Of a stretch of DNA of 64,000 nt, positions 3,001 to 54,519 are shown piece after piece; within the stretch, counting starts at the first letter, position 1; each line of letters begins with the position of its first letter. The notes beneath the pieces were generated by a model that saw only the letters and a list, made by a program, of their open reading frames with translations, was not told the origin of the DNA and ran no database searches. A program made the position numbers and the translations under genes. The stretch lies in contig JBBDIG010000019.1 in assembly GCA_040880525.1 (NCBI GenBank), forward strand, positions 1-64,000, read 5' to 3'. The DNA comes from Bacteroidia bacterium (GTDB taxonomy: Bacteria; Bacteroidota; Bacteroidia; CAILMK01; JBBDIG01).

Positions 3001-6000
3001 AATTGGCAAAACCCGTCCTGCAACGGAGGGAATGACGGCTATGCTATTGTAACAGTGACTGGTGGGGCTACACCGTATACCTATGACTGGTCAAATAATG
3101 ACACCACTGACAGCATCGGCAGCCTGTCCGCAGGACTTTACGTGGTGACTGTTACAGACAATAATAACTGCGAGGTCAGGGATTCTGTCATCCTCAGCAA
3201 TCCCCCCGCAATAAACCTGAGCGTATCAACCACTCCGGTAAGTTGCAATGGCGGAAATGATGGCTCAGCTTATGTTTCCAACCTGACCGGAGGAATGGCC
3301 CCATACAGCTATTTGTGGAGTTCAAACGAAACCGTGGATTCCATCTTTGGCAAAACTGCTGGCGGGTACTCCTTAACGGTTACTGATTCTAATGGATGCC
3401 AGGAAACAGAAAATTTCAACATTACCCAACCCAGTCCGCTTTCTGTATTTTTCAGTCCGGTGGTAGGAGTAAACTGCAGCGGAGACAGCACAGGTTCTGC
3501 AAGGGCGCTGGTTTCCGGTGGAAATGGCGGCTATTCCTATAGCTGGAGCAACGGAGATCTCACACAAACTGCCGATAGCCTTGCTGCCGGATATCACACA
3601 GTAACTGTAACCGACTCCAAAGGATGCATGGTTGTGGATTCTGTACTGATTAACCAGCAGCCGCCAATCACCATTAACTTCAATTCCAGCAATGCCCAGT
3701 GCAACAATGATAGTACAGGTTCTGCAACTGCATTCGTATCAGGTGGGCAATCGCCATATTCCTACAGTTGGAGCAATGGCGACATGACCCAAACTGCTGA
3801 CAGCCTCCCTGCCGGTACGCACTATGTAACCGTAACTGATGTTAACGGCTGCACCGGCAATGATTCGGTAACTATAACACAGCCCTCTGCACTGACCACT
3901 TCAATTCCACATAACGATGTGAATTGTAATGGAGACAGCACCGGATCTGCCATGGTCAATGTATTTGGCGGGACATCCCCATTCAGTTACAACTGGAGCA
4001 ACGGTGAAACCACCGCGGCCATAGACAGTCTTGCTGCCGGGATATATTATGTGCAGGTAACTGACGACAATGGTTGTATGGGATCCGATTCTGTTATAAT
4101 CAATGAACGTCCGGCTTTGGTGTTGAATCTTGACTCAACGGATGTAACCTGTAATGGAGCTGCCGATGGAACCGCTACGGTATCAGTAAGTGGCGGAACA
4201 CCGGGATATTCTTACGCCTGGAGCAATGGGGACATTACGGCAACAGCCGACTCTTTGCCAGCCGGAATTTACCAGGTGGTGGTTACCGACTTTTTCGGAT
4301 GTATAGATTCAGCATCTATTCAGGTCAACGAGCCTGCAGCACTTACCATATCCATTAATAACACTGATCTATTGTGTCATGGTGACAGCACGGCCACTGC
4401 CACGGCTTCTGTAAATGGTGGCACTCCCCCCTACTCTTATCAGTGGAGCAATGGGGATGCAACGGCAACGGCAGACAGCCTCCCGGCCGGAATGCACTAC
4501 CTCACTGTTACTGATTCAAATGGTTGCCAGGTAATGGATTCAGTGGAGATCACACAGCCTTCACTCCTTTCACTTGGCCAGAACCATACAGATGTTTCCA
4601 CTTCCGGAGGCAATGACGGTTCAATCGACCTGAGCGTATCAGGCGGAACATTTCCTTATACTTATCTGTGGAGCAATAATGCCAACACTCAGGACATAAA
4701 CAACCTTACCGCGGGGCAGTACTGCGTGTTGGTGACCGATGACAATGGGTGTCAGGACAGCCTCTGCGTTATAATCAACGAGCCCGGCTGTGCCGGATTT
4801 TCCGTAACAGTCGATTCCACTGATGTTTCCTGTAATGGTGGTGATGATGGTACGGCCACGGCAGTCGTGACCGGTGGTGCCTCACCATATTCCTATAACT
4901 GGAGTAATGGGGATACGGGCATCATGGCAGATACATTGAGTGCCGGGGCTTATTCGCTCACGGTGGTTGACAACAATAATTGTAGTACCAGCACCAACTT
5001 TGTAATCAACGAACCCAGTGAATTGCTCGTAACGGTGAACGGAACCGATGTGCTATGCAATGGCGATAACACCGGAACGGCCACAGCCAATGTTTCAGGC
5101 GGAACAACTCCTTATTCTTATTCCTGGAGTAATGGTGATACAACTTCAACTGCTGACAGCCTTGACGCAGGAATGCACTACGTTACGATTACTGATTCTA
5201 ATGGGTGCATGACATTGGATTCTGTAGAGATAACAGAACCACCGGCCTTATCCGTTTCAACTTCAGGAACCGATGTATTGTGCAATGGAAACAATAGCGG
5301 CACTGCAACAGCCAACGTTACTGGCGGAACCGGCCCATACAACTATGAGTGGAGCAATGGTGATACGGGTTCAACTGCTGACAGCCTTGCTGCAGGAATT
5401 CATTATGTCACCGTTACGGATGACAATGGTTGTATGATCCTGGATTCAGTTGAGATTTTGGAACCACCTGCCCTCTCTGTTTCAACCTCAGGAACGGATG
5501 TGCTTTGCAATGGTGATAACACCGGATCAGCAACAGCGACACCATCAGGTGGAACCATGCCTTATGCCTATAATTGGAGCAATGGCGACATGACCCCAAC
5601 TGCTGATAGCCTCGCAGCCGGTTGGCATTACGTAACGGTTACAGATTCCAATGGCTGCATGGTGACGGATTCGGTTGAGATCACTGAGCCTGCTGTATTG
5701 GACCTTACCCACAACAGAACAGATGTTTCCACCAATGGCGGCTCTGACGGTTCAATTGATCTCACCGTCTTAGGAGGAACATCACCTTACTCCTATCTGT
5801 GGTCTAATTCTGACACCACCCAGGACATTTCAGGCCTTACCGCTGGACAATATTGTGTGGTAGTTACAGACGACAATGGTTGCATAGACAGCGTTTGCGT
5901 CAACATCACTGAACCAGCACCTGGCTGTCCTTCCCTGGGCCTATCTACCGTTGATACTGACGTGCTTTGCAATGGAGGCAATACAGGATCCTCCACTGTT

Positions 6001-9000
6001 TCTACTTCCGGTGGAACTGCACCGTTTACCTATCAATGGTCAAATGGCGATACCGGTACCACTGCTGATTCTCTCTCTGCAGGCGCTTATTCCGTAATTG
6101 TTACTGACGACAATGGATGTGTAGATACTGCCACCGTGAATATTTCAGAACCGGCTTTACTGACCGTGTCAGTTTCAGGAACGGATGTGCTTTGCAATGG
6201 TGATAACACCGGGTCTGCAACAGCTACTCCTTCAGGAGGCACAACGCCTTATGAATACAGTTGGAACAATGGCGATATGACAGCAACTGCCGATAGCCTC
6301 GCAGCCGGATGGCACTATGTAACCGTTACCGATTCCAACGGCTGCATAGTCACTGATTCGGTGGAAATTACGGAACCAGCGTTACTGACTGTTACGACTT
6401 CTGTGGACAATCATGTTTCCTGCAATGGAGAAAGCAATGGCATGGCCACAGCATCAGCATCTGGCGGCACAATGCCTTATGAATTCAGTTGGAGCAATGG
6501 CGACATGACGGCAACTGCTGATAGCCTTCCAGCCGGATGGCATTACGTTATGGTGACAGATTCGAATGGCTGTATGGTGACGGATTCAGTAGAGATCACT
6601 GAGCCTGCTGTATTGGACCTTACCCACAGCAGTACAAATGTTTCTACAAATGGCGGCTCTGACGGATCAATTGATCTCACTGTCACTGGAGGAACATCAC
6701 CTTACTCCTATCTTTGGTCTAATTCAGCCACCTCGCAGGACATTTCAGGCCTTACTGCTGGGCAATATTGTGTGGTCGTTACAGATGACAATGGTTGCAT
6801 AGACAGCGTTTGCGTCATCATCACTGAACCTGCACCGGGTTGTCCTTCGCTGGGCCTCTCTACTATTGATAATGACGTACTTTGCAATGGAGGAAATACG
6901 GGCTCATCCACTGTTTCTACTTCCGGTGGAGCTGCACCGTTTTCTTATCAGTGGTCAAATGGCGATACAGGAACCATTGCTGATTCCCTCTCCGCTGGTG
7001 CTTATACCGTGATAGTTACTGACAGCAATGGATGTGCAGATACCGCCACCGTGAATATTTCAGAACCGACTTTACTGACCATGTCTGTTTCAGGAACGGA
7101 TGTGCTTTGCAATGGTGATAATACCGGGTCTGCAACAACTACTCCTTCAGGAGGCACAACGCCTTATGCATACAACTGGAGCAATGGCGATATGACGGCA
7201 ACTGCCGATAGTCTCGCAGCCGGATGGCATTACGTTACAGTGACAGACTCCAACGGCTGCATGGTCACGGATTCCGTGGAGATAACCGAACCTGCTATTT
7301 TGAGTGTTTCCATTTCGGGAGTTGGCCATGTGCTTTGCAATGGTGAAAACACCGGAGCAGCAACTGCTAATGCTTCAGGAGGAACAACGCCTTATTCATA
7401 TAGTTGGAGTAATGGCGACAAGACCGCAACTGCCGACAGCCTCGCAGCCGGATGGCATTACGTTACGGTGACAGATTCAAATGGCTGCATGGTCACGGAT
7501 TCGGTAGAGATTACCGAACCTGCGTTACTGACAGTTTCTGTCTCTGTTGACAATCATGTTTCCTGCAATGGCGGCAGCAATGGAATGGCCACAGCATCAG
7601 CTTCCGGGGGAAGTAATCCTTATGAATACATCTGGAGCAATGGCGACATGACTGCCACAGCCGATTCACTGCCTGCAGGATGGCACTATGTCACTATTAT
7701 GGACGACAACGGATGTACCCTGCTGGATTCCGTTGAAATTTCAGAACCCACACCAATTGAGATTACGGGCAATGTAACTGATGAATCCAGTTCAGGCGCT
7801 TCTGACGGGGCTATAAATATTACAGTTACCGGTGGTACTGCTCCTTATGCTTTCGCGTGGAGCAACAGCGACACCACTGAAGATATTTCCGGGCTGTCTT
7901 CAGGAAATTATTGGGTGGTGGTGACCGATGACAATGGCTGCCAGGATTCTGCAGAATTTGATGTATTTGTAGGAGCGGTTGTTCCGGTTGTAAAGGTTAC
8001 TCCTTCTGACAGTATTGGTTCAGGCCGCGCAGGATATTCCACAGCCATCAGAGGCGACTGGGCAATAGCAGGTGCCCCGCTGGATACTACTTATGGGCCT
8101 AAATCAGGGGCTGCTTATATTTATCAGAAAGTTGGCGGGGCATGGACAAGCCATGACAAACTCACATCAACCTCGAACCAGTCTGGTGATAAATTCGGCT
8201 TTGCTGTGGACATTTATGATACGCTCGCCATTATCGGAGCCCCCGAGGAAAACAGCCTCGGCTTTGGTACCGGTGTAGCCTACGTGTTTGCCCGCAGGTC
8301 TGGCTCATGGGTCGAACTCCAAACCCTAACTGCTCCAACCATCAAACGTGGCGACTTCTATGGCTATGATGTGGCAATCTTTGGGGAACGAATCGCAATT
8401 GGAAGTTTTGGGGCTGATCTCTCGGGTTACACACAATCAGGCGCAGTCTATATTTATGAAAGATCTGCAGGCACCTGGGCTCACACAGAAACGCTGTTGC
8501 CAAATGACGTAAACCACAACGACTACACCGGTCTCTCCGTGGATATGTATGAAGACCGCGTGGTGGCAGGATCGCCCACCAAAAACTCAGGATTGCTCTT
8601 AAAGGCCGGTGCTGCTTACGTCTGGAAATATGATGGCGCAGGCAACTGGGCGCAGGAGGGCAAGCTGGTTTCAGGCGACCTGGATACCCGCGATTCATTC
8701 GGTATATCAGTGGCCGTTGTAGATAGCACCGTGATCGTAGGTGCTTATGGTAATGATGATGACGGCAACAACTCTGGTTCGGCTTACATCTTTCAGAAAG
8801 GTGCTAGCACGTATGCGCAAACAGGTAAACTCACCGCGAGCGATGGCGATGCCACCCATCTGTTCGGCCATTCCGTAGGCATTACAAATGACACTGCCAT
8901 TGTAGGGGCCTATGCTGATGACCACAGCGGCATCCGCTCAGGTTCTGCCTATCTCTTCGCCAACAGTGGCGGCTGGGGCCAGTTCAAAAAGCTGGTGGCA

Positions 9001-9495
9001 CCCACGCCTGGCGCGTATGAAGATTATGGATTCTCTGTGGATGCCTCTGAAGACTGGGCAATGGTAGGTGCAAAGGGCGATGGCGAAGTAGCTGCCCTGG
9101 CGGGAGCTGTGTATTTCTATCACCTGCCGTCTGTTCCCACGCCAATCCTGGTGCATCGTGAGACCAACCTTTTTGATGAGGATGGTGAAGATGCTGGAAA
9201 TGATGAAGAAAGCGCCATATCAGCTTTTGACATCGCTGAGGAAGAAGCATTTGAACGGATGTTTGATCAAATCACAGTTTATCCCAACCCGGCCCGCGAC
9301 AGGCATGACATCAACATCAGCATTCCCGAAGGCAAAGAAGCCCAGGTGCAGATTATTGATGCAGCAGGCAACTTTGTGGTAAACCGCTTTGAGTATGGAC
9401 CTATGAAGATCCACAACCTTCGGGCTGGCGTTTACTTCCTGCGCATCCAGATTGATGCACATGTGGTACACAGGAAAATTGTTGTAGTAAAATAG
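1..9495 (+). CDS. Giant T9SS-secreted beta-helix / SprB-repeat / FG-GAP protein (5' partial)
   Basis: The frame is open from the first base, so the true N-terminus and signal peptide lie upstream; 3,164 residues are visible. Order of parts: the end of one beta-helix module (to about nt 360), two full modules (about 385-1680 and 1690-2970) with VPTDF-TIQAAIDS openings and NPPDIGADEF-type ends; 22 SprB-like repeats of about 75 residues (about 3010-7960; pattern C-N-G...GG..PY.Y.WSNG...L.AG.Y.VTVTD.NGC); seven FG-GAP-like blades (about 7985-9140); and a C-terminal T9SS type A sorting domain (YPNPARD to IVVVK, about 9268-9492). The family parts suggest an outer-surface adhesin or gliding-type protein; no enzymatic site was recognised. 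The 3' end and the following UTR resemble those of the third paralogue rather than the second. The exact function is unknown. Confidence 0.93.
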   Translation, partial: NRIWNNIFANSGGGPAVYYHRPNDLQSDYNNFYSTACNLGRYDSTSPSFQIFYPVDLAEWQSITGLDQNSLEVNPAFVNDTDLHSISSMLDGAGITTGRVTDDFDGQARSNPPDIGADEFTGGAGTYSAGTYSVPTDFGTIQAAIDSFSKRGINGNIILNIASGTYTEQVEIKDIPRSSPADSIIIQSSTQDSSDVVIQYSSTASDSNWTVLLDKAEGVTLQHLTIRANGNTYSNALALATKVERINIQNNIIEGQDLNSAQRDDAVIYGNGLSATDLKIMHNLIREGSFGIDLRFTNNTNCATSTSTFIAYNVFRSNYSNGMYIQDVFFLSVIENDITSDDEYTAYHGIYLWDNDSALMVLGNYVYDVKNLAMRIEHTENSAGNRGLVANNFLHSRDNGNGAYFNSNDYVDIFHNSVHKSNNTSTSQYAIQMQNSDNNRVWNNIFANSGGGPAVYYHRNVNLISDYNAFYSTTCNLGRFALPVSPFTNFFPDDLAEWQSVTGLDANSYEVNPAFLNDTDLHSISAVLDGAGITTGRVTHDFDMQSRGNPPDIGADEFTAGGSALSGTYSIPTDFGTFQAAIDSLVARGINGNVIINVANGTYTEQVIVPNISKTNPGDSVIFQSSSGVRTLVILQYASLVTDSNYTVKLKGAESITFQNLTLKALGTTYGRVLEIESYIRNVNLINNEIIGDSSNSTSTNKALIFGNPVYTDDFTVSMNAFTDGSEAIHLISNTSACANESPIHVHDNNLTDQFSRGVFLQRFDFAKVCENDITTAGNHSTFEGIYLHTCDSAIEVTKNNVNGGRGTALRLWDCDASSGKEGKIYNNMLQTHTNGSTVDIQHCSYQNFYHNSVHLSNSSNSNIYAAIIWHQGPIRVVNNIFSNSGGGPTVYFTNGTNIDTSDHNDFYWTGSTFGRWFNTVVNSFGAWQTTSGQDANSDTLDPRFVSTTDLHLTDSSLANIGMDLLAEVPEDIDEDPRTTTPFVGADEYTGACPGIFTNINWQNPSCNGGNDGYAIVTVTGGATPYTYDWSNNDTTDSIGSLSAGLYVVTVTDNNNCEVRDSVILSNPPAINLSVSTTPVSCNGGNDGSAYVSNLTGGMAPYSYLWSSNETVDSIFGKTAGGYSLTVTDSNGCQETENFNITQPSPLSVFFSPVVGVNCSGDSTGSARALVSGGNGGYSYSWSNGDLTQTADSLAAGYHTVTVTDSKGCMVVDSVLINQQPPITINFNSSNAQCNNDSTGSATAFVSGGQSPYSYSWSNGDMTQTADSLPAGTHYVTVTDVNGCTGNDSVTITQPSALTTSIPHNDVNCNGDSTGSAMVNVFGGTSPFSYNWSNGETTAAIDSLAAGIYYVQVTDDNGCMGSDSVIINERPALVLNLDSTDVTCNGAADGTATVSVSGGTPGYSYAWSNGDITATADSLPAGIYQVVVTDFFGCIDSASIQVNEPAALTISINNTDLLCHGDSTATATASVNGGTPPYSYQWSNGDATATADSLPAGMHYLTVTDSNGCQVMDSVEITQPSLLSLGQNHTDVSTSGGNDGSIDLSVSGGTFPYTYLWSNNANTQDINNLTAGQYCVLVTDDNGCQDSLCVIINEPGCAGFSVTVDSTDVSCNGGDDGTATAVVTGGASPYSYNWSNGDTGIMADTLSAGAYSLTVVDNNNCSTSTNFVINEPSELLVTVNGTDVLCNGDNTGTATANVSGGTTPYSYSWSNGDTTSTADSLDAGMHYVTITDSNGCMTLDSVEITEPPALSVSTSGTDVLCNGNNSGTATANVTGGTGPYNYEWSNGDTGSTADSLAAGIHYVTVTDDNGCMILDSVEILEPPALSVSTSGTDVLCNGDNTGSATATPSGGTMPYAYNWSNGDMTPTADSLAAGWHYVTVTDSNGCMVTDSVEITEPAVLDLTHNRTDVSTNGGSDGSIDLTVLGGTSPYSYLWSNSDTTQDISGLTAGQYCVVVTDDNGCIDSVCVNITEPAPGCPSLGLSTVDTDVLCNGGNTGSSTVSTSGGTAPFTYQWSNGDTGTTADSLSAGAYSVIVTDDNGCVDTATVNISEPALLTVSVSGTDVLCNGDNTGSATATPSGGTTPYEYSWNNGDMTATADSLAAGWHYVTVTDSNGCIVTDSVEITEPALLTVTTSVDNHVSCNGESNGMATASASGGTMPYEFSWSNGDMTATADSLPAGWHYVMVTDSNGCMVTDSVEITEPAVLDLTHSSTNVSTNGGSDGSIDLTVTGGTSPYSYLWSNSATSQDISGLTAGQYCVVVTDDNGCIDSVCVIITEPAPGCPSLGLSTIDNDVLCNGGNTGSSTVSTSGGAAPFSYQWSNGDTGTIADSLSAGAYTVIVTDSNGCADTATVNISEPTLLTMSVSGTDVLCNGDNTGSATTTPSGGTTPYAYNWSNGDMTATADSLAAGWHYVTVTDSNGCMVTDSVEITEPAILSVSISGVGHVLCNGENTGAATANASGGTTPYSYSWSNGDKTATADSLAAGWHYVTVTDSNGCMVTDSVEITEPALLTVSVSVDNHVSCNGGSNGMATASASGGSNPYEYIWSNGDMTATADSLPAGWHYVTIMDDNGCTLLDSVEISEPTPIEITGNVTDESSSGASDGAINITVTGGTAPYAFAWSNSDTTEDISGLSSGNYWVVVTDDNGCQDSAEFDVFVGAVVPVVKVTPSDSIGSGRAGYSTAIRGDWAIAGAPLDTTYGPKSGAAYIYQKVGGAWTSHDKLTSTSNQSGDKFGFAVDIYDTLAIIGAPEENSLGFGTGVAYVFARRSGSWVELQTLTAPTIKRGDFYGYDVAIFGERIAIGSFGADLSGYTQSGAVYIYERSAGTWAHTETLLPNDVNHNDYTGLSVDMYEDRVVAGSPTKNSGLLLKAGAAYVWKYDGAGNWAQEGKLVSGDLDTRDSFGISVAVVDSTVIVGAYGNDDDGNNSGSAYIFQKGASTYAQTGKLTASDGDATHLFGHSVGITNDTAIVGAYADDHSGIRSGSAYLFANSGGWGQFKKLVAPTPGAYEDYGFSVDASEDWAMVGAKGDGEVAALAGAVYFYHLPSVPTPILVHRETNLFDEDGEDAGNDEESAISAFDIAEEEAFERMFDQITVYPNPARDRHDINISIPEGKEAQVQIIDAAGNFVVNRFEYGPMKIHNLRAGVYFLRIQIDAHVVHRKIVVVK

Positions 9496-9522
9496 TTCAT
9501 CAAATACCACTTTTTTCAGATA

Positions 9523-9557
9523 GGGCTGCCTTCATAGATGGCAGCCCTTTTCTTTTT
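9523..9557 (+). terminator. Rho-independent terminator of the first giant gene
   Basis: An 8-bp perfect stem (GGGCTGCC / GGCAGCCC) with a 9-nt loop is followed by TTTTCTTTTT, 27 bp after the stop codon. A related hairpin follows the third paralogue, so the terminator was probably copied along with the gene end. Confidence 0.85.
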
Positions 9558-9620
9558 GAGTTAGACCTGAATTTCCTCTAAATTCGACAAGTAATTTTTT
9601 AGCAATTCTTCCCTCTATAA

Positions 9621-9693
9621 GAAATACACTCGGCATCTAAAGAAGTACATTAGCGTATATTCCTCTTCCTGAATTTTAATGAAGTACATTCGG
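9621..9693 (+). promoter_or_regulatory. Three direct repeats of GAARTACAYT upstream of the second giant gene
   Basis: Copies begin at 9621 (GAAATACACT), 9642 (GAAGTACATT) and 9681 (GAAGTACATT); two are followed by CGG. The starts are 21 and 39 bp apart, roughly two and four helical turns. They lie 58-128 bp upstream of the probable start codon at 9749, where an operator or activator site would be placed. No standard TAnnTTTG box was seen here. The regulatory role is an inference. Confidence 0.3.
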
Positions 9694-9748
9694 GGCTACT
9701 CGCCCATGTTTTTTTACCATGATCTCAAATCAGTCAATATTTTTAACT

Positions 9749-12700
9749 ATGAAAACGCTTACAACTACCCTGGTACTAATGCTGCTTTTTGGCTTCACTT
9801 CAATTATGGCCCAGCCCCTGAGTGGAAGCTATAGCATAGATGCCGGGATGGCAACCGGAGGAACCAACTATCAGAACTTTACTGATGCCGTGAGCGATCT
9901 CACAACCAATGGAATTTCCGGAAATGTAATTTTCAATATCGCATCTGGAACTTATCCTGAACAAATCACGATTCCGTGGATTTCCGGCTCCTCCCCTAGC
10001 GACTCCATAATCTTTCAGTCGGCCACCGGAGATAGTACCGATGTTGTGCTCACCTATAATGCAGGCAGTTCAGCGAACTACACCTTGCAACTTGACAGCA
10101 CTGCCTACATTACTTTCCAAAACCTGACCCTTCGGGCTTCCAATCTCACTTATGGCCGGGTGGTACTTTTTACAGATTATGTGAAGAGCATTCATTTCCT
10201 GAACAACCATATTCTTGGTACAGATGCAAATGGCGCTGCAAACAGCATATTGGTTTATGGCAATAATATCGGAGGGTCCGATATTAACTTTGAGAATAAC
10301 AGAATTGAAGAAGGTGCCAATGGAATATATCTTAATTTTAAGGGGAGTTCACGCGGGACAGATATAACGATCGCCAACAATTTCTTCCTGAACAATTTTT
10401 TGAGGGGAATAGATTTGACGCGGATAAACTTTTTGGAGGTCCGCGGGAACAAGCTAACCACTGACGATGAAGCCACCGGATACATTGGAATCTTTCTTTT
10501 TGATGTTGACAGTGCCTTAAAGGTAATTGGAAATCAGGTATCTGATATAAAAAATGTAGCATTGTACCTCCAATTTTCAGAGAACTCATCAACTGACCGG
10601 GGCCTGATTGCCAATAATTTCTTCCATGCACGGGATAATGGTGATGCGGTCATGTTGATCAGGAGCAATGAATATCTGGATATATTCCATAACTCCGTTA
10701 ATCGCAGTGATGACGCCAACCAAGACGATTATGCCCTGGAATTCCAATTTGGGAATAACAATCGAATCTGGAACAATAATATCGCAAACACAGGTGGTGG
10801 GCCGGCTATCTATTATCATCGACCGGGTAATCTAACTTCAGACTATAACAATCTCAATGTGCCGGGCTGTAATTTGGGCAGGTATACCTCGCCAGTTTCG
10901 CCATTTACGGAATCCTATCCCGGCAATCTCGTTGAATGGCAGGCTACAACGGGATTAGATCCAAACTCAATTTCAGTTAATCCTGCATTTAAAAGTGACA
11001 AAGACTTGCACTCCAGTTCATTTATCCTTAGGAATGCAGGTGTAAATACCAGCCAGGTAAGTAATGATTTTGACGGGGAACCGCGCAGTAACCCACCGGA
11101 CATTGGGGCAGACGAAATAATGGGCCCCGGGCCTTATGCAGGCGGCACTTATACAGTTCCTGGTGATTTTGTCACCATACAGGCAGCCGTAGATTCATTG
11201 GCGGCACGCGGGATTGGAGGCAATGTAGTACTCAATATTACTCCCGGCACTTACAATGAACAAGTGGAAATCGGGTACATTTCCCGAGCTTCTATCAGCG
11301 ACTCCATCATCATCCAATCCTCAACGCAGGACAGTTCGGATGTGATTATCCAACATACCTCCACCCAAAGCACGGCAAATTGGACCATATTATTGGACCA
11401 GACGGAAGGATTGACCTTACAGCACCTTAGCATCAGGGCCAACAACAATACCTACGGGCATGCCTTGGTGTTAACAAAAAGGGTGGACGGCCTAAACATT
11501 CTCAATAATTCAATTGAAGGGACGGATATGAGTACCAACGGCACAGATGGCGCTCTGATATATGGGAACAATGTACTTAGCACCAGTAGCCTGCACATTG
11601 AGAGAAACCTAATGAGCGAGGGTACCCGTGGAATTTCCCTTGATTTTGCGAATAGTGCGATCTGTCTTTCCAATAATACGGTCATCGCGCACAACCAGCT
11701 AAGCGGCCATTATGATAGGGGAATTTCCATTCAGAAAGCCTTTTTTCTGCAAGTCCTGGACAATGACATTACCTCTGATGATGAATTTTCAAAATTCGTG
11801 GGCATTTACCTCAATGATAATGACAGTGCCCTACAGGTAATGGGCAATTATGTTTCCGATGCCAGGAACATCGCATTGGAACTGAGGAATTCAGATAATT
11901 CTGGAGCTAACCGGGGGTTGGTGGCCAATAATTTCGTGCACTCGACCGGCAACGGAAATACTGTTTTGGTTGACAGCAATTCTTATTTGGATTTCTTCCA
12001 TAATTCCGTGCACCAAAGTACGGGTAACGGGGCAGCATTTTTTGCCTTCGTTTTTGCCAGCGGGGATTCTAACCGGATATTGAACAACATTTTCGCGAAT
12101 AGCGCAGGAGGGGCTGCTGCATACTATGGATTGGCACCCCAGGCATCAGACTTTAATAATTTCTATAGCACCACATGTTATCTCGGCCGATACATCAATT
12201 CTTATCCTATAGATTTAGCTGAATGGCAATCAGTAACCGGACTTGATGCCAACTCCTTTGATGTCAATCCATCTTTCGAAAGCAACAGTGACCTTCACAG
12301 CCATTCATCGGTACTTGATGGGGCTGGAGTCTTTACAGGGCGTGTGCCTGGGGATTTTGATGGAGAAGCGCGCAACAATCCTCCAGATATTGGGGCGGAT
12401 GAATTCACCATCAGCCAGTCGCCCTATGCTGGCGGTACCTATACGGTTCCCGGTAACTTTGCTACGATACAGGCCGCAATGGATTCTCTTGAAAAGCGGG
12501 GCATAGCCGGTACTGTGCTTTTGAATATTGCCTCGGGCACTTACAATGAACAGGTTGAGGTAGGGTACATTGAGCGCGCGTCCAGTACTGATTCTATCAT
12601 CATACAATCATCCACGCAAGACAGTAGCGATGTGGTGATCGAATATGCGTCTATGCGTGCCGATTCGAACTGGACGGTGCTATTGGATGGTACGGAAGGA

Positions 12701-15700
12701 ATTACCATCAGGCACCTGACCATACGCGCCACAGGCACTAATTACGGGCGGGCATTGGTGTTCTCAGATCGGCTAATAGATGTGAATATCCTGAATAATG
12801 CGGTTCAGGGCACGGACTATAACGGCAATCTCACCGATTTCTCAGGAATCTTTACGGAGAAACTTGGCGCTACTAATCTTCGTATTAGAAATAACCTGGT
12901 GGAGGAGGGCGCCTACGGTATTTATCTGCATTTCAACACCTTCTCTGTATGCAGATCGGCCGATAACCTGATTGTAGCCGGCAATAAGGTTATCGGCAGT
13001 TTCGTAAACGGTATTGATGTACTCCGGGCTTCCCGGGTCCAGGTGTTGAACAACGAGGTTACTACAGACGATGACTATTGCTGCGGCAGCGGGATATACT
13101 TGTACCAGGTGGACAGCAGCCTTAAGGTTACAGGCAATTATGTGTATGATCAGCCCGGTTATGCGCTTTACCTTTTAAATTCAGATAATTCGGCCCTGGA
13201 CCGTGGGCTGGTGGCCAACAACTTCTTCCATAGCGATTCCAGTGCGGACGGGGTATTTATAAGTGAGGCGACCTATCTGGATGTTTTCCATAATTCTGTT
13301 CATAAAACCAATAACAACAGCACGGACGAATATGCCTTTGTGATCCGGGAGGGCAGCGACAATCGCATTCTCAACAACATCTTCGCAAACAGCGGTGGCG
13401 GCCCGGCAGCGTTCTATTTCCGCCCGGATGGCCTAACCAGCGATTACAATGGCTTCTTCAGTACTTCCTGCAACCTGGGACGGTACGATAGCACCGCCCC
13501 CAGTTTGGAAACCTACTTTCCCGCCAACCTCGCTGAATGGCAGGCTGTATCGGGGCTTGACATGAACTCACTGCAAGTGAACCCTGCTTTTGCCAGTAAT
13601 GCGGACCTTCACTCCAGTTCGATTTCACTGAACAATGTGGGCATGACCACGGGCCGTGTGCCCAACGATTTCGATGGGGAGGCGCGCAACAACCCGCCTG
13701 ACATTGGTGCCGATGAATATGGCCTAACGGGTGCCCCACCCTATGCGGGAACCTATTCCGTCCCGACTGATTTTGCCACCATACAAACGGCCGTGGATTC
13801 CTTTGCCAAGCGCGGCATTAACGGAAATGTGGTGCTCAATATCGCCACGGGCACCTACAATGAGCAGATAGAGATACCCAACATTCAGCGATCAGCGGCT
13901 GCGGACACCATCATCATCCAGTCATCCACGCTGGACACAGCGGACGTGATAATAGAATATGCAGCCTCACAAGCCGATTCCAACTGGACGATATTGCTGG
14001 ATAATGTGAAGGGGCTGACACTGCGGCACCTGACGATCCGTGCTATTGGGGGTGCTTATGACCGGGGCATCGCCATCCAGACCCAAGTAGAAAATGTGAA
14101 CATTCTCAACAACGCACTGGAGGGTGGCACACCACTTTATGGGAATGGGTTTTTTGACAACGATCTGATCATAGTCAAAAACCAGATAACAGCCAGCGTC
14201 AGGGCTATAGATTTCAGCTACGAATACAGCAATGCCTGTAGTAGCAATAGCAGCCTTAACCATACTGTGATAGACAGTAACATAGCTTCCAATGGCGTAG
14301 CCCTGGGATATGCCTTGAACCCAAATATCCGCTACAATGATTTGGTGGGGCCCATTAGTTTGGAGAGAGGGCAGGATGCCCTGGTGGCCAACAACCAGTT
14401 GGCAGGTGGTGTATTTGCCTTTAGTACCGTGAACCTCACGGTCAGGGACAATGAGTTAAGTTCAACCAATGGCAAGATCGGCCTAACTACCGATACGAAT
14501 ACTACCATCGCCAATAACCGGATACAGCAAGGTATATCTTCTGACGGCTCGTTGTACCTGACCATTCACGGCAATGAGATCGGCAGGGGAATAAGTGTGG
14601 ACGATGCCGAGGAAAACTTTACCATAACACAGAACCAGATATTCAATGTGGGAGGCCCTGCACTTGAAGTCAGGCGGTTTAATTATCCAAGTGACGCGTA
14701 TTTGGCCAATGGTTTAATCGCGAACAACTTCATCTATTCCACAGGCAGTGGCCATGGGGTTCATTTATATCTTAATACTTCAATTGATTTCCACAATAAT
14801 TCGGTGCATAAAACCGGCAATTCCGATCCCAACGTGTATGCATTCGTAGTGGAATTCGGAGGTGGTACTTTTGTAAAGAACAACATTTTGGTTAATAGCG
14901 GTGGCGGTCCTATCGTATTTTACTATGATGGATCAACAACATCCGACTACAATAATTTCTTCGGTTCGCCTTGCATATTTGGGCGTTATGGGGATCTTTA
15001 TCTTCCAACCGACCTTGCCGAGTGGCAGGTTGTCACAAGGCGAGAGGACGCACATTCCTTTTACGGAGATCCTATGTTTTTGAACGACAGTGACCTGCAC
15101 ATCAATATCGCTTTTCTTGATGGCGCAGGAACAAGTTTAAGCCAGGCAACAATGGACTTTGACGGTGAGCCGCGCAATAACCCACAGGACATCGGTGCCG
15201 ATGAATTTACGTATACCGGGCCAGGTCCTTATGCAGGTACTTATTCCGTTCCCACCGATTTTGCCACCATTCAGGATGCGGTGGATTCCTTTACAATTGG
15301 GGGCATGACAGGCAATGTAGTGCTGAATATTGAACCCGGCACCTACAATGAGCAGGTTGAAATCGGTCGAATACATCGCTTCTCTTCAGGAGACAGTATC
15401 ATTATTCAATCAGAAAACCAGGACAGCGCTGACGTAATTATTGAATTCGCCTCCACCTCCAGCGACTCCAATTGGACGGTCCTTTTGGCTGAGGCCCAAT
15501 ACCTGACCTTGCAACATCTCACCATTCGCAATACGGGTGGCACAACTGCCCTGGCCATACAGGACAGGATAAGGGAAGTCAATATCCTCAACAATCAACT
15601 TGAAGGGTCTGGCAGCAAGGCCTTGCATGGGAATGCAAGGATAGACGACCTCTTGATTGCGAATAATCAGGTAAACGGTATTTATATGTTAACCCCTCAA

Positions 15701-18406
15701 TGTGGCATTCATAGCAGTGCTGTTGCGATTGTTGATGGCAATATCTCTGATGAAGGGATATATATCGAGGGAATTAATATGCTCAATGTGCAGTACAACA
15801 TCGTCACTGCGGATGACTTAGAGGTGGTAGAGGCAGACACCACGTTGCAGATAATCGGAAACCATATTTATGATGGAAAGCTAAAGGTCCTCCATTCTAT
15901 CAACACTTCTTCGGCACCTGGCCTCATTGCCAACAACTTCGTAAGTGGTGGCGGGATTGACCTGGCATTTACGGCCTATATGAACATCTATCATAATTCG
16001 GTCAACAGCCGTTCTGATGCTTTCCGCGTAGCACCCGGACCTGACAACCTCGTTTACAACAACAGTTTCGTGAGTGATTTCGGTTTTGCTATTTACATTG
16101 ATGAGCCGGTGCTCCTTAATGCAAGTGTCCGCTCTGATTATAATAACCTGCTTACCAACGGAACTTACCTGGCCGCTTATGATCTTGCGGATCCATATTT
16201 TACTACTTACCCGGTTAAGTTCTATGAGGATTTGGCAGATTGGCAGCAGGGAACATTAGAAGGTACCAACTCCGTTTCCGTTAACCCTGGATATGTGAAC
16301 GATACGGACCTTCACGCCAGTTCGAGCGTCCTGAACGGGACAGGCAAGATTGTGAGCGGTGTGCCCTTGGATATTGACAAGGAAACACGCGGAACGCCTC
16401 CTGATATCGGTGCCGATGAATTTTCGGGTTCGTGCCCTGGCGCGGTCATCACTTTCACGGTCTATGGCCCGTCCTGCAACGGTGACAGCGATGGCGCTGT
16501 GAAGGCCACTGTTACCGGAGGGACACCACCTTACACCTTTCTGTGGTCCACCAATGAAACCACGGACAGCCTCGGAAACCTGTCCGCAGGTAAGTATTTC
16601 TTAGAGGTAGGGGATGCGAATGGCTGCACCTATTTTGACACTGCGGACATTGTTGACCCTGCACCACTTGGCATCACAGCGCTGGTCACGGGCGAATCGA
16701 GCAATGGGGCATCTGATGGGGCCATTGACATTACCGTGAGCGGAGGTACTACGCCCTACAGCTACCTGTGGAACAATAGCGCCACTTCCGAGGATCTATC
16801 GAATATTGGGTCTGGGAATTATAAAGTCATTGTCACCGATTCGAACGGTTGCCAGGATTCCGCTGAATACGAGGTAGACCTAAGAACCATGACGCTCGTG
16901 GTGAAAGTCACTCCCTCAAGTAGCGCAGGTTCTGGCCGGGTAGGATTCTCCACTGTAATCAATGGCGACTGGGCGATGGCCGGGGCACCACTTGATGCCA
17001 CAAAAGGCATAAAAGCAGGTGCAGTCTATGTCTACAAAAGGAATGGTGGCACCTGGACGACAAATGCCAAGCTCACTTCCAATTCCACGCAAGCAGGCGA
17101 TAAATTTGGATTTGCAGTTGGCATTGATGATACGCTGGCCATTGTCGGTGCGCCCGAAGAGAACAGCCAGGGCTTTGGTACCGGTGTAGCCTACGTGTTT
17201 GCCCGCAGGTCTGGCTCATGGGTGGAACTCCAAACCCTAACTGCTCCAACCATCAAACGTGGCGACTTCTATGGCTATGATGTGGCAATCTTTGGGGAAC
17301 GAATCGCAATTGGAAGTTTTGGGGCTGATCTCTCGGGTTACACACAATCAGGCGCAGTCTATATTTATGAAAGATCTGCAGGCACCTGGGCTCACACAGA
17401 AACGCTGTTGCCAAATGACGTAAACCACAACGACTACACCGGTCTCTCCGTGGATATGTATGAAGACCGCGTGGTGGCAGGATCGCCCACCAAAAACTCA
17501 GGATTGCTCTTAAAGGCCGGTGCTGCTTACGTCTGGAAATATGATGGCGCAGGCAACTGGGCGCAGGAGGGCAAGCTGGTTTCAGGCGACCTGGATACCC
17601 GCGATTCATTCGGTATATCAGTGGCCGTTGTAGATAGCACCGTGATCGTAGGTGCTTATGGTAATGATGATGACGGCAACAACTCTGGTTCGGCTTACAT
17701 CTTTCAGAAAGGTGCTAGCACGTATGCGCAAACAGGTAAACTCACCGCGAGCGATGGCGATGCCACCCATCTGTTCGGCCATTCCGTAGGCATTACAAAT
17801 GACACTGCCATTGTAGGGGCCTATGCTGATGACCACAGCGGCATCCGCTCAGGTTCTGCCTATCTCTTCGCCAACAGTGGCGGCTGGGGCCAGTTCAAAA
17901 AGCTGGTGGCACCCACGCCTGGCGCGTATGAAGATTATGGATTCTCTGTGGATGCCTCTGAAGACTGGGCAATGGTAGGTGCAAAGGGCGATGGCGAAGT
18001 AGCTGCCCTGGCGGGAGCTGTGTATTTCTATCACCTGCCGTCTGTTCCCACGCCAATCCTGGTGCATCGTGAGACCAACCTTTTTGATGAGGATGGTGAA
18101 GATGCTGGAAATGATGAAGAAAGCGCCATATCAGCTTTTGACATCGCTGAGGAAGAAGCATTTGAACGGATGTTTGATCAAATCACAGTTTATCCGAACC
18201 CGGCCCGCGACAGGCACGACATCAACATCAGCATACCCGAAGGCAAAGAAGCCCAGGTGCAGATTATAGATGCGGCAGGCAACTTCGTGGTAAACCGCTT
18301 TGAGTATGGACCCATGAAGATCCACAACCTCCGGGCTGGCGTTTACTTCCTGCGCATCCAGATTGATGCACATGTATACCATCGTAAGTTGGTGGTAGTG
18401 AAGTAA
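9749..18406 (+). CDS. Giant T9SS-secreted beta-helix / FG-GAP protein, second paralogue
   Basis: The start at 9749 (MKTLTTT...) is chosen over an in-frame ATG at 9719 because it gives a clean signal peptide ending ...SIMAQ that matches the third paralogue. The product is about 2,885 residues. It has five beta-helix modules (openings near nt 9818, 11140, 12425, 13735 and 15230), each about 400-500 residues and ending in a GADE motif. Two SprB-like repeats (about 16435-16890) follow, then seven FG-GAP blades (about 16900-18050) and a T9SS type A sorting domain (about 18180-18403). From 17171 to 18195 it is almost identical to the first gene, while its sorting domain is closer to that of the third. 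The product is predicted to be exported and anchored or released at the cell surface; its ligand is unknown. Confidence 0.93.
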   Translation: MKTLTTTLVLMLLFGFTSIMAQPLSGSYSIDAGMATGGTNYQNFTDAVSDLTTNGISGNVIFNIASGTYPEQITIPWISGSSPSDSIIFQSATGDSTDVVLTYNAGSSANYTLQLDSTAYITFQNLTLRASNLTYGRVVLFTDYVKSIHFLNNHILGTDANGAANSILVYGNNIGGSDINFENNRIEEGANGIYLNFKGSSRGTDITIANNFFLNNFLRGIDLTRINFLEVRGNKLTTDDEATGYIGIFLFDVDSALKVIGNQVSDIKNVALYLQFSENSSTDRGLIANNFFHARDNGDAVMLIRSNEYLDIFHNSVNRSDDANQDDYALEFQFGNNNRIWNNNIANTGGGPAIYYHRPGNLTSDYNNLNVPGCNLGRYTSPVSPFTESYPGNLVEWQATTGLDPNSISVNPAFKSDKDLHSSSFILRNAGVNTSQVSNDFDGEPRSNPPDIGADEIMGPGPYAGGTYTVPGDFVTIQAAVDSLAARGIGGNVVLNITPGTYNEQVEIGYISRASISDSIIIQSSTQDSSDVIIQHTSTQSTANWTILLDQTEGLTLQHLSIRANNNTYGHALVLTKRVDGLNILNNSIEGTDMSTNGTDGALIYGNNVLSTSSLHIERNLMSEGTRGISLDFANSAICLSNNTVIAHNQLSGHYDRGISIQKAFFLQVLDNDITSDDEFSKFVGIYLNDNDSALQVMGNYVSDARNIALELRNSDNSGANRGLVANNFVHSTGNGNTVLVDSNSYLDFFHNSVHQSTGNGAAFFAFVFASGDSNRILNNIFANSAGGAAAYYGLAPQASDFNNFYSTTCYLGRYINSYPIDLAEWQSVTGLDANSFDVNPSFESNSDLHSHSSVLDGAGVFTGRVPGDFDGEARNNPPDIGADEFTISQSPYAGGTYTVPGNFATIQAAMDSLEKRGIAGTVLLNIASGTYNEQVEVGYIERASSTDSIIIQSSTQDSSDVVIEYASMRADSNWTVLLDGTEGITIRHLTIRATGTNYGRALVFSDRLIDVNILNNAVQGTDYNGNLTDFSGIFTEKLGATNLRIRNNLVEEGAYGIYLHFNTFSVCRSADNLIVAGNKVIGSFVNGIDVLRASRVQVLNNEVTTDDDYCCGSGIYLYQVDSSLKVTGNYVYDQPGYALYLLNSDNSALDRGLVANNFFHSDSSADGVFISEATYLDVFHNSVHKTNNNSTDEYAFVIREGSDNRILNNIFANSGGGPAAFYFRPDGLTSDYNGFFSTSCNLGRYDSTAPSLETYFPANLAEWQAVSGLDMNSLQVNPAFASNADLHSSSISLNNVGMTTGRVPNDFDGEARNNPPDIGADEYGLTGAPPYAGTYSVPTDFATIQTAVDSFAKRGINGNVVLNIATGTYNEQIEIPNIQRSAAADTIIIQSSTLDTADVIIEYAASQADSNWTILLDNVKGLTLRHLTIRAIGGAYDRGIAIQTQVENVNILNNALEGGTPLYGNGFFDNDLIIVKNQITASVRAIDFSYEYSNACSSNSSLNHTVIDSNIASNGVALGYALNPNIRYNDLVGPISLERGQDALVANNQLAGGVFAFSTVNLTVRDNELSSTNGKIGLTTDTNTTIANNRIQQGISSDGSLYLTIHGNEIGRGISVDDAEENFTITQNQIFNVGGPALEVRRFNYPSDAYLANGLIANNFIYSTGSGHGVHLYLNTSIDFHNNSVHKTGNSDPNVYAFVVEFGGGTFVKNNILVNSGGGPIVFYYDGSTTSDYNNFFGSPCIFGRYGDLYLPTDLAEWQVVTRREDAHSFYGDPMFLNDSDLHINIAFLDGAGTSLSQATMDFDGEPRNNPQDIGADEFTYTGPGPYAGTYSVPTDFATIQDAVDSFTIGGMTGNVVLNIEPGTYNEQVEIGRIHRFSSGDSIIIQSENQDSADVIIEFASTSSDSNWTVLLAEAQYLTLQHLTIRNTGGTTALAIQDRIREVNILNNQLEGSGSKALHGNARIDDLLIANNQVNGIYMLTPQCGIHSSAVAIVDGNISDEGIYIEGINMLNVQYNIVTADDLEVVEADTTLQIIGNHIYDGKLKVLHSINTSSAPGLIANNFVSGGGIDLAFTAYMNIYHNSVNSRSDAFRVAPGPDNLVYNNSFVSDFGFAIYIDEPVLLNASVRSDYNNLLTNGTYLAAYDLADPYFTTYPVKFYEDLADWQQGTLEGTNSVSVNPGYVNDTDLHASSSVLNGTGKIVSGVPLDIDKETRGTPPDIGADEFSGSCPGAVITFTVYGPSCNGDSDGAVKATVTGGTPPYTFLWSTNETTDSLGNLSAGKYFLEVGDANGCTYFDTADIVDPAPLGITALVTGESSNGASDGAIDITVSGGTTPYSYLWNNSATSEDLSNIGSGNYKVIVTDSNGCQDSAEYEVDLRTMTLVVKVTPSSSAGSGRVGFSTVINGDWAMAGAPLDATKGIKAGAVYVYKRNGGTWTTNAKLTSNSTQAGDKFGFAVGIDDTLAIVGAPEENSQGFGTGVAYVFARRSGSWVELQTLTAPTIKRGDFYGYDVAIFGERIAIGSFGADLSGYTQSGAVYIYERSAGTWAHTETLLPNDVNHNDYTGLSVDMYEDRVVAGSPTKNSGLLLKAGAAYVWKYDGAGNWAQEGKLVSGDLDTRDSFGISVAVVDSTVIVGAYGNDDDGNNSGSAYIFQKGASTYAQTGKLTASDGDATHLFGHSVGITNDTAIVGAYADDHSGIRSGSAYLFANSGGWGQFKKLVAPTPGAYEDYGFSVDASEDWAMVGAKGDGEVAALAGAVYFYHLPSVPTPILVHRETNLFDEDGEDAGNDEESAISAFDIAEEEAFERMFDQITVYPNPARDRHDINISIPEGKEAQVQIIDAAGNFVVNRFEYGPMKIHNLRAGVYFLRIQIDAHVYHRKLVVVK

Positions 18407-18548: not shown

Positions 18549-21500
18549 ATGAAAACGCCTACACTTATCCTTGGATTATTCCTACTATTTGGCTTCACTT
18601 CAATTATGGCCCAGCCCCTGAATGGCAGCTATAGCATAGATGCCGGGATGGCTACTGGTGGCACCAACTATCAAACCTTTAATGATGCTGTGAGCGACTT
18701 GACAGCCAATGGAATTTCCGGCAACGTAATTTTCAATATCGCATCTGGAACTTACACCGAGCAGGTCACCATTCCGTGGATTTCCGGCACCTCTCCCACT
18801 GACTCTATAATCTTTCAGTCGGCCACCGGAGATAGTACGGATGTGGTGCTCACCTATAATGCAAGCAGCTCAGCTAACTACACCTTGCAACTTGACAGCA
18901 CTGCCTACATTACTTTCCAAAACCTGACCCTTCGGGCTTCCAATCTCACTTATGGCCGGGTGGTACTTTTTACAGATTATGTGAAGAGCATTCATTTCCG
19001 GAATAATCATATTCTGGGACAGGATGCAAACGCTGCCAGCAATACAATACTAATCTATGGAAATGCTATTAGAGGATCACATCTGGAATTCAGCAACAAC
19101 AGAATAGAAGAAGGTGCCAACGGAATATATCTGAACTTTCAGGGTAGTTCGCGTGGAACTCATATTACCATTGCCAATAATTTCATCTTAGATAACTTCT
19201 CCAGAGGAGTGGACCTTACCCGGATTAATTTTTTAAATATAATTGGAAACAAAATCACTACTGATGATGAGGCTACAGGCTATATTGGTATTTATCTTTT
19301 TGATATTGATAGTGGAATCAGGGTGGTTGGCAACAATGTTTACGATGTGAAAAATGTAGCCCTTTACCTCCAATTTTCAGAGAACTCTTCAACTGACCGG
19401 GGCCTGATTGCCAATAATTTCTTCCATGCACGGGATAATGGGGATGCTGTAATGTTGATCAGGAGCAATGAATATCTGGATATTTTCCATAACTCCGTTC
19501 ACCGCAGTGATGACGCCAACCAAGACGATTATGCCCTGGAATTTCAGTTTGGGAATAACAATCGCATCTGGAACAACAATATCGCAAACACAGGTGGTGG
19601 GCCGGCTATCTATTATCATCGACCGGGAAGTCTTGTTTCTGACTATAACAATCTCTATGTGCCGGGCTGTAATTTGGGCAGGTATACCTCACCCGTTTCT
19701 CCCTTCACAGATTATGCAGTAGCCGGGCTTCCGGAATGGCAGTCGGTAACAGGATTTGATGCCAATTCCCTTAATGCCAATCCTGCTTTTGTTAACGACA
19801 CAAATTTGCATTCATCCTCTATCGCGTTAGCGGGTGCGGGGGTATATACAGGGCTTGTGAGTGAAGACATTGACGGTCAACCGAGAAATAATCCTCCGGC
19901 CATCGGTGCCGATGAAATTATTGGACAAGTGCCTTATAGTGCTGGAACATACGCTGTACCCAATGATTTTGCTACAATACAGGCTGCCGCTGACTCCTTT
20001 GCCAGTTACGGTATTAGCGGACATGTAGTCCTGAATATCGCCCCGGGAACCTATAATGAACAAGTAGAATTTAGGTACATACCCCGTGCATCTCAAAATG
20101 ACTCTGTAATTATTCAATCATCAACACAGGACAGTTCTGATGTTATTATCGAATTTACCTCAATCCAAAGTGAGGCTAATTGGACAGTAATGCTAAAGGA
20201 GGTTGCAGGTATCACGCTGCAATACCTCACTATCAGGGCCAGTGGCACTACCTATGGCCGTGCGCTGGTTTTTGAAAAAAGAATGGAGAATATTAACATC
20301 CTGAACAATTTAATTGTGGGGCCGGATGTGACAATTGCAAATACAAATGCCTCCCTTTTTTATGGCGAAGATATTTTCAGTGCAGGCAATTTGCGTATTA
20401 AGCATAACATGATCCGGGGAGGATCGCAAGGTATTTCCTTAGTTTTTTCTAATAGCACAAACTGCATATCAGGAAGTACCATTGTCGCCAATAATATTCT
20501 CAAGAGCAATTACAATGGTGGAATTTTTATCGAAAACTCTTATTTCCTGCAGCTCCTGAAAAATACCATTACTTCAACGCACAATTATGCTAACTATACA
20601 GGAATTGAACTCATCAACAATGACAGCGCACTCGCAGTAATTGGCAACCAAGTGTACAATGTTATGAATCACGCAATGCGTTTGGAAAGCTCAGACAATT
20701 CTCCGTCAGCTCGTGGTCTGGTCTCCAATAATTTTTTCCATTCTCATGGCACTGGTGATGGCGTGGTTTTGATCAATAACCAAAATCTGGATATATTTCA
20801 TAATTCAGTGCATAAAAGCATGAATGCGGATGTGGAAGATTATGCTTTCGTTGAGCAATTAGGGAATAACAACCGCATATTAAATAACATTTTTGCAAAT
20901 TCAGGTGGTGGCCCGGCTATCAACTATGACCGTTCTGACAACCTCATTTCTGATTATAACAATTTCTATAGCACCGCCTGTAATTTGGGCCGCTACTATG
21001 ATCTGGTCATAACTGATCCGCAATATTATGGTGACCTGGTCGAATGGCAATCAATCACAGGTTTGGACAGTTCCTCTTATGCAGTCCATCCGGCATTTTT
21101 AAATGATTCAGATCTTCATACTACGTCTTTTATTTTAAATAATGCGGGTACACATACAGGCCGTGTACCAATGGATTTTGATGATGAGCCACGTAACAAC
21201 CCACCTGATATTGGAGCCGATGAATTTATTCCATCTGGCTTGGGACCATACACAACAGGCAGTTATGCAGTTCCTACTGACTTTCTTAACATACAATCAG
21301 CCGTAGATTCATTCACATTGCGTGGAATTGACGGCAATGTAATTCTAAACATTGAACCAGGCACCTATTACGAGCAAGTCAAAATATCTTCCATTCCTAC
21401 CACTTCCCATTTGGATAGCCTCGTTGTGCAATCGGCCACGGAAGACAGCGCTGATGTGACCATTGAATTTGCAGCTGCATCCAGCGATTCAAACTGGACG

Positions 21501-25661: not shown

Positions 25662-25681
25662 TAATCAAATACCACTTTTTC

Positions 25682-25724
25682 AAAAAGGGCTGCTTCTACA
25701 AAAGGTAGCCCTTTTTATTTTTTT
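25682..25724 (+). terminator. Rho-independent terminator of the third giant gene
   Basis: The stem AAAAGGGCT / AGCCCTTTT is followed by a long T-rich run (TTTTTATTTTTTT). The sequence before it (CAAATACCACTTTTT) is shared with the region after the first giant gene. Confidence 0.8.
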
Positions 25725-29786: not shown

Positions 29787-29845
29787 TTCCCCGGTCTTTC
29801 CGGTGTAATACCGGAATGCTCTGAACCAACTGAGCTAAACTCATG

Positions 29846-29922
29846 TGGGAGTTGAGGGATTCGAACCCCCGACCCTTCCGGTGTAATACCGGAATGCGCT
29901 GAACCAACTGAGCTAAACTCGT
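29846..29922 (-). pseudogene. tRNA-Val-like pseudogene (hairpin anticodon arm)
   Basis: This 77-nt unit keeps the D-arm region, T arm and 3' acceptor strand of tRNA-Val. The anticodon arm is two nt longer than normal and forms a 7-bp stem. Taken as a 6-bp stem with a 7-nt loop, the central triplet is TTA and position 33 is A rather than the near-invariant U. The D stem has a T-C mismatch (GCTC / GCGC), and the first two acceptor pairs are lost. Decoding function is unlikely. Confidence 0.65.
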
Positions 29923-29923
29923 G

Positions 29924-30000
29924 TGGGAGTTGAGGGATTCGAACCCCCGACCCTTCCGGTGTAATACCGGAATGCGCTGAACCAACTGAGCTAAACTCGT
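29924..30000 (-). pseudogene. tRNA-Val-like pseudogene (hairpin anticodon arm), second copy
   Basis: This unit has practically the same sequence as the one at 29846-29922 and the same defects: the long palindromic anticodon arm, a mismatch in the D stem and two lost acceptor pairs. It lies directly downstream of the intact tRNA-Val, one base away, so both are probably in one primary transcript. Confidence 0.65.
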
Positions 30001-30001
30001 G

Positions 30002-30076
30002 TGGGAGTTGAGGGATTCGAACCCCCGACCCTCTGCTTGTAAGGCAGATGCTCTGAACCAACTGAGCTAAACTCCC
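30002..30076 (-). tRNA. tRNA-Val(TAC)
   Basis: The 75-nt cloverleaf is orthodox: acceptor GGGAGTT / AACTCCC, D stem GCTC / GAGC, anticodon stem TCTGC / GCAGA around loop CTTACAA (anticodon TAC, reading GTA codons), T arm GGGGG-TTCGAAT-CCCTC, discriminator A. The CCA end is not encoded. It is the only apparently functional member of the array. Confidence 0.93.
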
Positions 30077-30285
30077 ATTTTACTTCATCATTTCCAAGCC
30101 GACCCTTCCGGTGTAATACCGGAATGCGCTGAACCAACTGAGCTAAACTCCCATTTTACTTCATCATTTCCAAGCCGACCCTTCCGGTGTAATACCGGAA
30201 TGCTCTGAACCAACTGAGCTAAACTCCCAATTTTAAACTAAACTCCCATTTGGAAATTCGCCTTGCTCTATCGCGAAAGCGGGTG

Positions 30286-52759: not shown

Positions 52760-52851
52760 AAATCCTACAAAAATGTTTGATTCTTCTTTTTGTTAATTAT
52801 TGTATTATAGCTTGCAATTGCAAACAGCATTTTAACCCAAAACCCTGAGTA

Positions 52852-53574: not shown

Positions 53575-53616
53575 TGAATACCAACTTTCAGATAATAACG
53601 AATTAAAACCCTCATT

Positions 53617-54342: not shown

Positions 54343-54384
54343 TGAATACCAACTTTCAGATAAAAACGAATTAAAACCCTCATT

Positions 54385-54447
54385 ATGAAATTATGTCAAG
54401 TATTCTTTCTCACAGTTTGTACAATACTACTGCTAGCCTCATCCTGC
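54385..54447 (+). pseudogene. Truncated third copy of the Cys-rich lipoprotein
   Basis: The first 21 codons (MKLCQVFFLTVCTILLLASSC) and the upstream spacer match the gene at 53617 with only a few differences. Homology stops exactly after the lipobox Cys, where a REP-like palindrome begins. The remaining 670 bp of the gene are missing; the right flank of the element does not resume the gene. Confidence 0.85.
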
Positions 54448-54480
54448 GTTAGCGCGCGTTTAGCGAAGCGTAACGCGTGC
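54448..54480 (+). repeat. REP-like palindromic element, left copy
   Basis: GTTAGCGCGCGTTTAGCGAAGCGTAACGCGTGC holds CGCGTT...AACGCG inverted arms around a 10-nt centre. It is the inverted complement (two bases shorter in the centre) of the copies at 54948 and 57293. It borders the truncated lipoprotein and precedes the transposase remnant. Confidence 0.8.
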
Positions 54481-54519
54481 GGTGTCGGTTGCACCCCTAA
54501 AGTTCCTTAACTTCACGCC

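Follow-up and report, generated by a model that had tools for sequence, protein, structure and literature searches.

Probable repeated gene conversion among three tandem genes for giant type IX-secreted surface proteins in a Bacteroidia genome

Three neighbouring genes for giant surface proteins, paralogues that all end in a type IX sorting domain, have probably undergone repeated intragenomic gene conversion, the latest event involving about 1 kb shared by genes 1 and 2. All three are arranged head to tail on the plus strand at the start of contig C19, within a stretch of 64,000 nucleotides (the window) from a 60-contig draft assembly of a Bacteroidia bacterium (3.80 Mb, 98.4% complete). Gene 1 (positions 1 to 9495; 3,164 aa here) has no 5' end on this contig, as the window begins within it, and encodes about 22 SprB repeats, seven FG-GAP repeats and a T9SS sorting domain. 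Gene 2 (9719 to 18406; 2,895 aa) encodes beta-helix modules, two SprB repeats, an FG-GAP propeller and a sorting domain, and gene 3 (18549 to 25661; 2,370 aa) follows the same plan. The C-terminal end of all three products consists of FG-GAP repeats (PF14312) and the type IX sorting domain (PF18962), with the SprB repeats upstream. PF18962 scored above its curated cut-off of 27 bits in all three (75.6, 38.2 and 37.5 bits), as expected of type IX secretion cargo. Genes 2 and 3 encode hydrophobic N-termini, as judged by eye. The combination of SprB repeats and T9SS points to Bacteroidota.

The end of contig C11 carries a 359-codon frame that runs off the contig, and its last 55 bases recur as the opening 55 of C19. 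This contig end appears to hold what gene 1 lacks at its 5' side (the first 341 codons), and by arithmetic the C11 and C19 parts give a full length of 3,505 codons. The SprB array of gene 1 (5041 to 7691) contains internal repeats of its own, for example 5241 to 6608 against 6150 to 7523 (81% over 1.4 kb), a likely sign of past duplication or exchange inside the gene.

Direct comparison bore out the preliminary description of a near-identical block in genes 1 and 2. Positions 8260 to 9284 in gene 1 and 17171 to 18195 in gene 2 (plus strand, offset 8,911) are identical at 1024 of 1025 bases. The sole mismatch (C at 8313, G at 17224) has 53 exact bases on its left, and the remaining 971 bp (8314 to 9284 and 17225 to 18195) are an exact match. 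Synonymous divergence between the two copies was 0.004 (one change in 244 synonymous sites, 95% interval 0.0001 to 0.023), and each copy was at dS 0.73 from gene 3, whose counterpart (24432 to 25450, plus strand) lies outside the recent tract and is identical to either copy at 837 of 1,019 positions. To the left of the tract, over 8060 to 8259, identity between genes 1 and 2 was 67.5%, dS was saturated for this pair, and the other two pairs were at dS 1.9 to 2.2. The tract is thus bounded within diverged homologous genes, silent sites included, which is the mark by which gene conversion is recognized.

The tract accounted for 182 (ungapped) of the 559 polymorphic columns in a three-gene alignment over 7560 to 9495, and at 181 of these 182 columns genes 1 and 2 agreed. 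A recombination test of the three C-terminal regions gave a longest run of agreement between genes 1 and 2 of 171 sites, whereas none of 10,000 permutations exceeded 19, so chance clustering was excluded. Purifying selection alone, maintaining the likeness of the propeller and the sorting domain, would be in keeping with a dN below dS in most segments that had a finite estimate. However, the identity within the tract extends to silent sites, which are saturated immediately beyond it. Because dS is 0.004 inside and saturated on the left, selection on the protein was ruled out for the tract of genes 1 and 2, and as an explanation for the likeness it is extremely improbable.

The two ends of the tract differ. 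Both had been described as abrupt, and the left end is (12 mismatches in 8205 to 8259), but on the right the two genes remain identical at 172 of 180 positions (95.6%) over 9285 to 9464, and identity collapses only at 9465 (17/31, or 54.8%, from there). The tract was also said to cover most of the FG-GAP propeller and the linker before the sorting domain. It does so: it starts inside FG-GAP repeat 2, away from a domain boundary, takes in the repeats up to number 7 and the linker, and stops 8 bases into the sorting-domain match.

The C-terminal part was modelled with AlphaFold2 (mean pLDDT 72, six sequences in the alignment). In the model, a run of strands was counted by eye as seven four-stranded blades, followed by a low-confidence linker (residues 406 to 462) and then the sorting domain. 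The tract would start at approximately residue 115, within blade 2, and end where the sorting domain begins. A Foldseek search matched the predicted C-terminal part to integrin alpha chains (PDB 5es4 and 3v4v, best E 2.8e-14). The predicted fold is like that of the integrin alpha-chain beta-propeller, whereas sequence identity was 11-15% among the top matches listed. An integrin-like propeller would be compatible with a role in binding or adhesion.

Just downstream of the tract, the sorting-domain segment (9285 to 9464 in gene 1, 18196 to 18375 in gene 2 and 25451 to 25630 in gene 3, all plus strand) is homogenised in all three genes and older. Pairs are 95.0-97.8% identical at dS 0.08 to 0.25 with no amino acid change, and the last 101 bp of the gene 2 segment match gene 3 exactly. 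The other 20 of the 23 sorting-domain matches in the genome are only 28-43% identical, so the likeness within the array reflects no genome-wide constraint. The sorting domain of gene 2 had been described as closer to gene 3. This held by a small margin (4 differences of 180, against 8 between genes 1 and 2 and 9 between genes 1 and 3) and failed in the last 31 coding bases, where it is genes 1 and 3 that are alike (28/31). The preference involves few sites and no significant run (p = 0.94), and this lack of significance counts against the conversion reading. The only significant run outside the tract joined genes 1 and 3 at 9465 to 9478 (p = 0.003, same run test).

The end of gene 1 and the first part of its 3' UTR (9465 to 9557, plus strand) resemble gene 3 (25631 to 25721) at 28 of 31 and 49 of 60 positions, and are unlike gene 2 (54.8% and 43.4%). 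The affinity of the gene 1 3' UTR to gene 3, also proposed earlier, was upheld for about 60 bp, where genes 1 and 3 agree at 49 of 60 positions, genes 1 and 2 at 23 of 53 and genes 2 and 3 at 23 of 51. Successive segments therefore differ in their closest pair, which is genes 1 and 2 in the first, genes 2 and 3 (weakly) in the next, and genes 1 and 3 in the last.

Towards the 5' end, two further islands of low divergence join gene 2 to gene 3. The first (9782 to 10200 in gene 2, 18582 to 19000 in gene 3, plus strand) is at dS 0.32 beside saturated dS, and ends in 124 exact bases at 10076 to 10199. The second (10579 to 10840 and 19379 to 19640, plus strand) is at dS 0.28; saturated dS precedes it, over the stretch between the two islands (10201 to 10578), and dS of 1.8 to 2.2 follows it (1.84 directly adjoining). 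Alternating low and saturated dS within one gene pair is what older conversions would leave. The alignments thus showed tracts of different ages that join different gene pairs. The mosaic exchange proposed in the preliminary description is well supported and was extended by the two islands and by the unlike ages of the tracts. Its other element, recency, is less certain, and given the k=55 assembly considered below the tract of genes 1 and 2 is likely, but not proven, to be recent.

A mosaic could also arise by unequal crossing-over in a two-gene ancestor, which would leave a third, chimeric gene (gene 2) with its upstream portion from gene 3 and its downstream portion from gene 1. The 5' end of gene 2 is indeed nearest to gene 3 (78% over 1.8 kb) and its tract nearest to gene 1. 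The two sides of such a junction should be of the same age, yet one was found at dS 0.3 to saturated and the other at 0.004, and the 3' flank of gene 1 would have been carried into gene 2, yet 9465 to 9557 is unlike gene 2. Given this large age difference between the sides of the mosaic, and a 3' flank that stayed behind, a single unequal crossover is a poor fit and very unlikely to account for the pattern. Unequal crossing-over may be the source of the old growth of the array, rather than of the tract.

To gauge how far the assembly bears on these identities, 300 bases at each end of all 60 contigs (120 tips) were compared. Thirty-three of the 120 tips have their terminal 55-mer in common with another tip, the overlap of any pair never exceeds 55 bases, and between the end of C11 and the start of C19 it is exactly 55. 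Because tips share at most 55 bases, we infer that the assembly is a k=55 short-read de Bruijn graph that stopped at many repeats, and k=55 in turn suggests metaSPAdes as the assembler. As described in the accessible part of the source, metaSPAdes collapses bulges more aggressively than the isolate mode and threads repeats with strain paths (PMC8021871).

An assembler of this kind might have merged alike but non-identical copies into one consensus and written it twice. At 971 bp, the repeat greatly exceeds k, and no 16S rRNA gene was found in the assembly. Only 53 bases separate the sole mismatch from the tract edge, with no shared 55-mer to its left, which places it beyond the reach of simple merging; by chance, a single mismatch would lie at most 54 bases from an edge about 1 time in 10. 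Moreover, no pair of copies in the window has a lone mismatch flanked on both sides by 55 identical bases. These features would fit merging, and since a k=55 graph holds the 971-bp repeat as one segment, the 99.9% identity of the tract is taken as an upper bound, as isolated differences within that repeat could have been merged away. Nevertheless, copies must already be very alike to merge, and therefore collapse would lower the recency of the homogenised tract and not its existence; the tract stands, perhaps older. The sharp left boundary, with its 12 mismatches in 55 bp, sits in an uncollapsed part, and the older islands of genes 2 and 3, at dS of about 0.3, carry differences and so do not come from collapse, except perhaps for the 124 exact bases. 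We therefore consider a purely assembly-made tract quite unlikely, and prefer gene conversion.

The array contains four repeats of at least 55 bp (971, 124, 101 and 59 bp). The number of graph orders that fit it is one if only the 971-bp repeat was unresolved, two with the 971- and 124-bp repeats, and five with all four. If the 124-, 101- and 59-bp repeats were spanned by reads or pairs, the order of the array is forced, because one order alone uses every segment. Mispaired exits of the repeat were set aside, given the single path through the array when the 971-bp repeat alone is unresolved, and this single path also argues against an assembly effect. The 55-mer at window positions 1 to 55 and at the C11 end (L064, 9143 to 9197) occurs in the assembly at these two ends only. 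Because this break-point 55-mer is confined to the two overlapping ends, the graph probably had a further branch at the break in gene 1, either a strain variant or an unbinned copy.

Other origins of the tract were considered. The G+C content of the tract (52.1%) matches that of the gene 3 counterpart (51.9%), and there was no sign of foreign origin. Three long copies were found in the draft assembly, all within the long open genes of the array, together with one 40-bp match elsewhere. Programmed antigenic variation, in which silent cassettes supply one expression site, was rejected on finding no silent partial copies elsewhere in the draft assembly.

Relatives were searched at several levels, the genus- and family-level comparison sets consisting of the window's own genome alone. 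Within the order, at least one match at E <= 0.001 was obtained in every one of the 12 genomes (including its own), and outside its own genome the strongest had E 5.7e-47 and 38% identity; most of the matches listed span only the SprB end of the query, and no orthologue of the array was found in the other 11 genomes. Within the class, 4 of 395 genomes, including its own, had a match at E <= 1e-40, with three candidates scored per genome. The 23 named loci match mostly the first 140-230 query residues, on the SprB side. An unconverted, ancestral state was seen in no relative among the genomes searched (12 in the order, 395 in the class), which counts against the conversion reading. A scan of 55 loci for direct repeats (at least 150 bp and at least 85% identical, loci below 2 kb skipped) gave seven with repeats, most of them inside one frame, and two of the seven (L132 and L142) represent one contig with the same repeats. 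In none of the 55 did the repeats clearly represent a comparable tract joining adjacent giant genes.

Under gene conversion, the paralogues would trade segments via homologous recombination between copies. Genes 1 and 2 retain identical stretches of 45-50 bp with gene 3, and a RecA-type pathway, which we infer, could initiate in short stretches such as these and transfer a patch. The latest event would have copied about 1 kb between genes 1 and 2, a patch reaching from within the second propeller blade to the beginning of the sorting domain, without exchange of the flanks. Before it, other exchanges would have linked the 5' regions of genes 2 and 3 and made the sorting domain alike in all three genes. 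The left flank hints weakly at gene 1 as the donor: gene 1 matches gene 3 at 155 of 200 positions there and gene 2 matches it at 141 of 200, a difference that is not significant (Fisher p = 0.14). Such exchange would probably keep the propeller, linker and export/anchor end alike as the beta-helix and SprB parts diverge. A bolder proposal, which we regard as unlikely, is a live recombination system in which conversion keeps a shared cassette of propeller, linker and sorting domain uniform and moves 5' modules between neighbours, with the beta-helix and SprB parts diversifying and one population carrying differing mosaics. If this were true, variants in the sample would account for the contig break in gene 1.

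Two other repeat regions were noted in the window. At 29789 to 30233, on the minus strand, approximately five tandem tRNA-Val-like copies surround one good tRNA-Val (anticodon TAC, 30001 to 30076, Rfam 75.8 bits). Two copies are full length and the rest shortened, and the anticodon arm is swapped for another hairpin. ARAGORN called two of the copies 'tRNA-Stop (tta)', with an Rfam score of just 33.4 bits, and they look like decayed or recombined tRNAs rather than suppressor tRNAs. The 78-bp unit had some match in 7 of the 12 genomes of the order, the best outside its own genome at 83%. The second region, 52091 to 57276, holds six tandem genes (222-241 aa) with no Pfam match at E 0.001. At least some of these are paralogous: identity between neighbouring stretches reaches 84%, and exact repeats are as long as 70 bp. 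Conversion may for this reason be acting there as well.

That neighbouring paralogues in bacteria undergo gene conversion is well established, and the event itself is ordinary. A documented example is the tandem pair PE_PGRS17 and PE_PGRS18 of Mycobacterium tuberculosis (PMC1762029; PMC12046097). In the parts of these sources consulted, the pair resembles the present array in being adjacent paralogues for repetitive proteins in which a bounded tract has been made identical, leaving a mosaic. It differs in that converted and unconverted states are known from many strains, whereas here a tract of about 1 kb comes from one draft genome of another phylum with another secretion route. Nearer in phylogeny and export are the rgpA, kgp and hagA genes of Porphyromonas gingivalis, which, as far as the accessible text goes, have identical segments within and between genes that automated assembly was unable to resolve fully (PMC5266723). 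Portions of a second source give the catalytic domains of RgpA and RgpB as 97% identical and their propeptides as 76% (PMC10319874). The gingipain and haemagglutinin genes share with the array the type IX-secreted surface proteins of Bacteroidota and (near-)identical segments in otherwise different genes; in contrast, their products are adhesins and proteases rather than FG-GAP propellers, and the accessible text does not describe them as one three-gene tandem array (PMC5266723). Searches of the open-licence literature, in which absence carries little weight, returned no paper on FG-GAP, SprB and type IX secretion together, for concerted evolution of Bacteroidetes adhesins only a Helicobacter review, and for ectopic intrachromosomal gene conversion in bacteria no paper with a bacterial title.

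The array illustrates a general hazard, in that near-identical repeats in k=55 drafts can seem more recent than they are. If long reads confirm the tract, the three genes would be a clear example of gene conversion affecting type IX-secreted giants, in which a single array holds tracts of several different ages.
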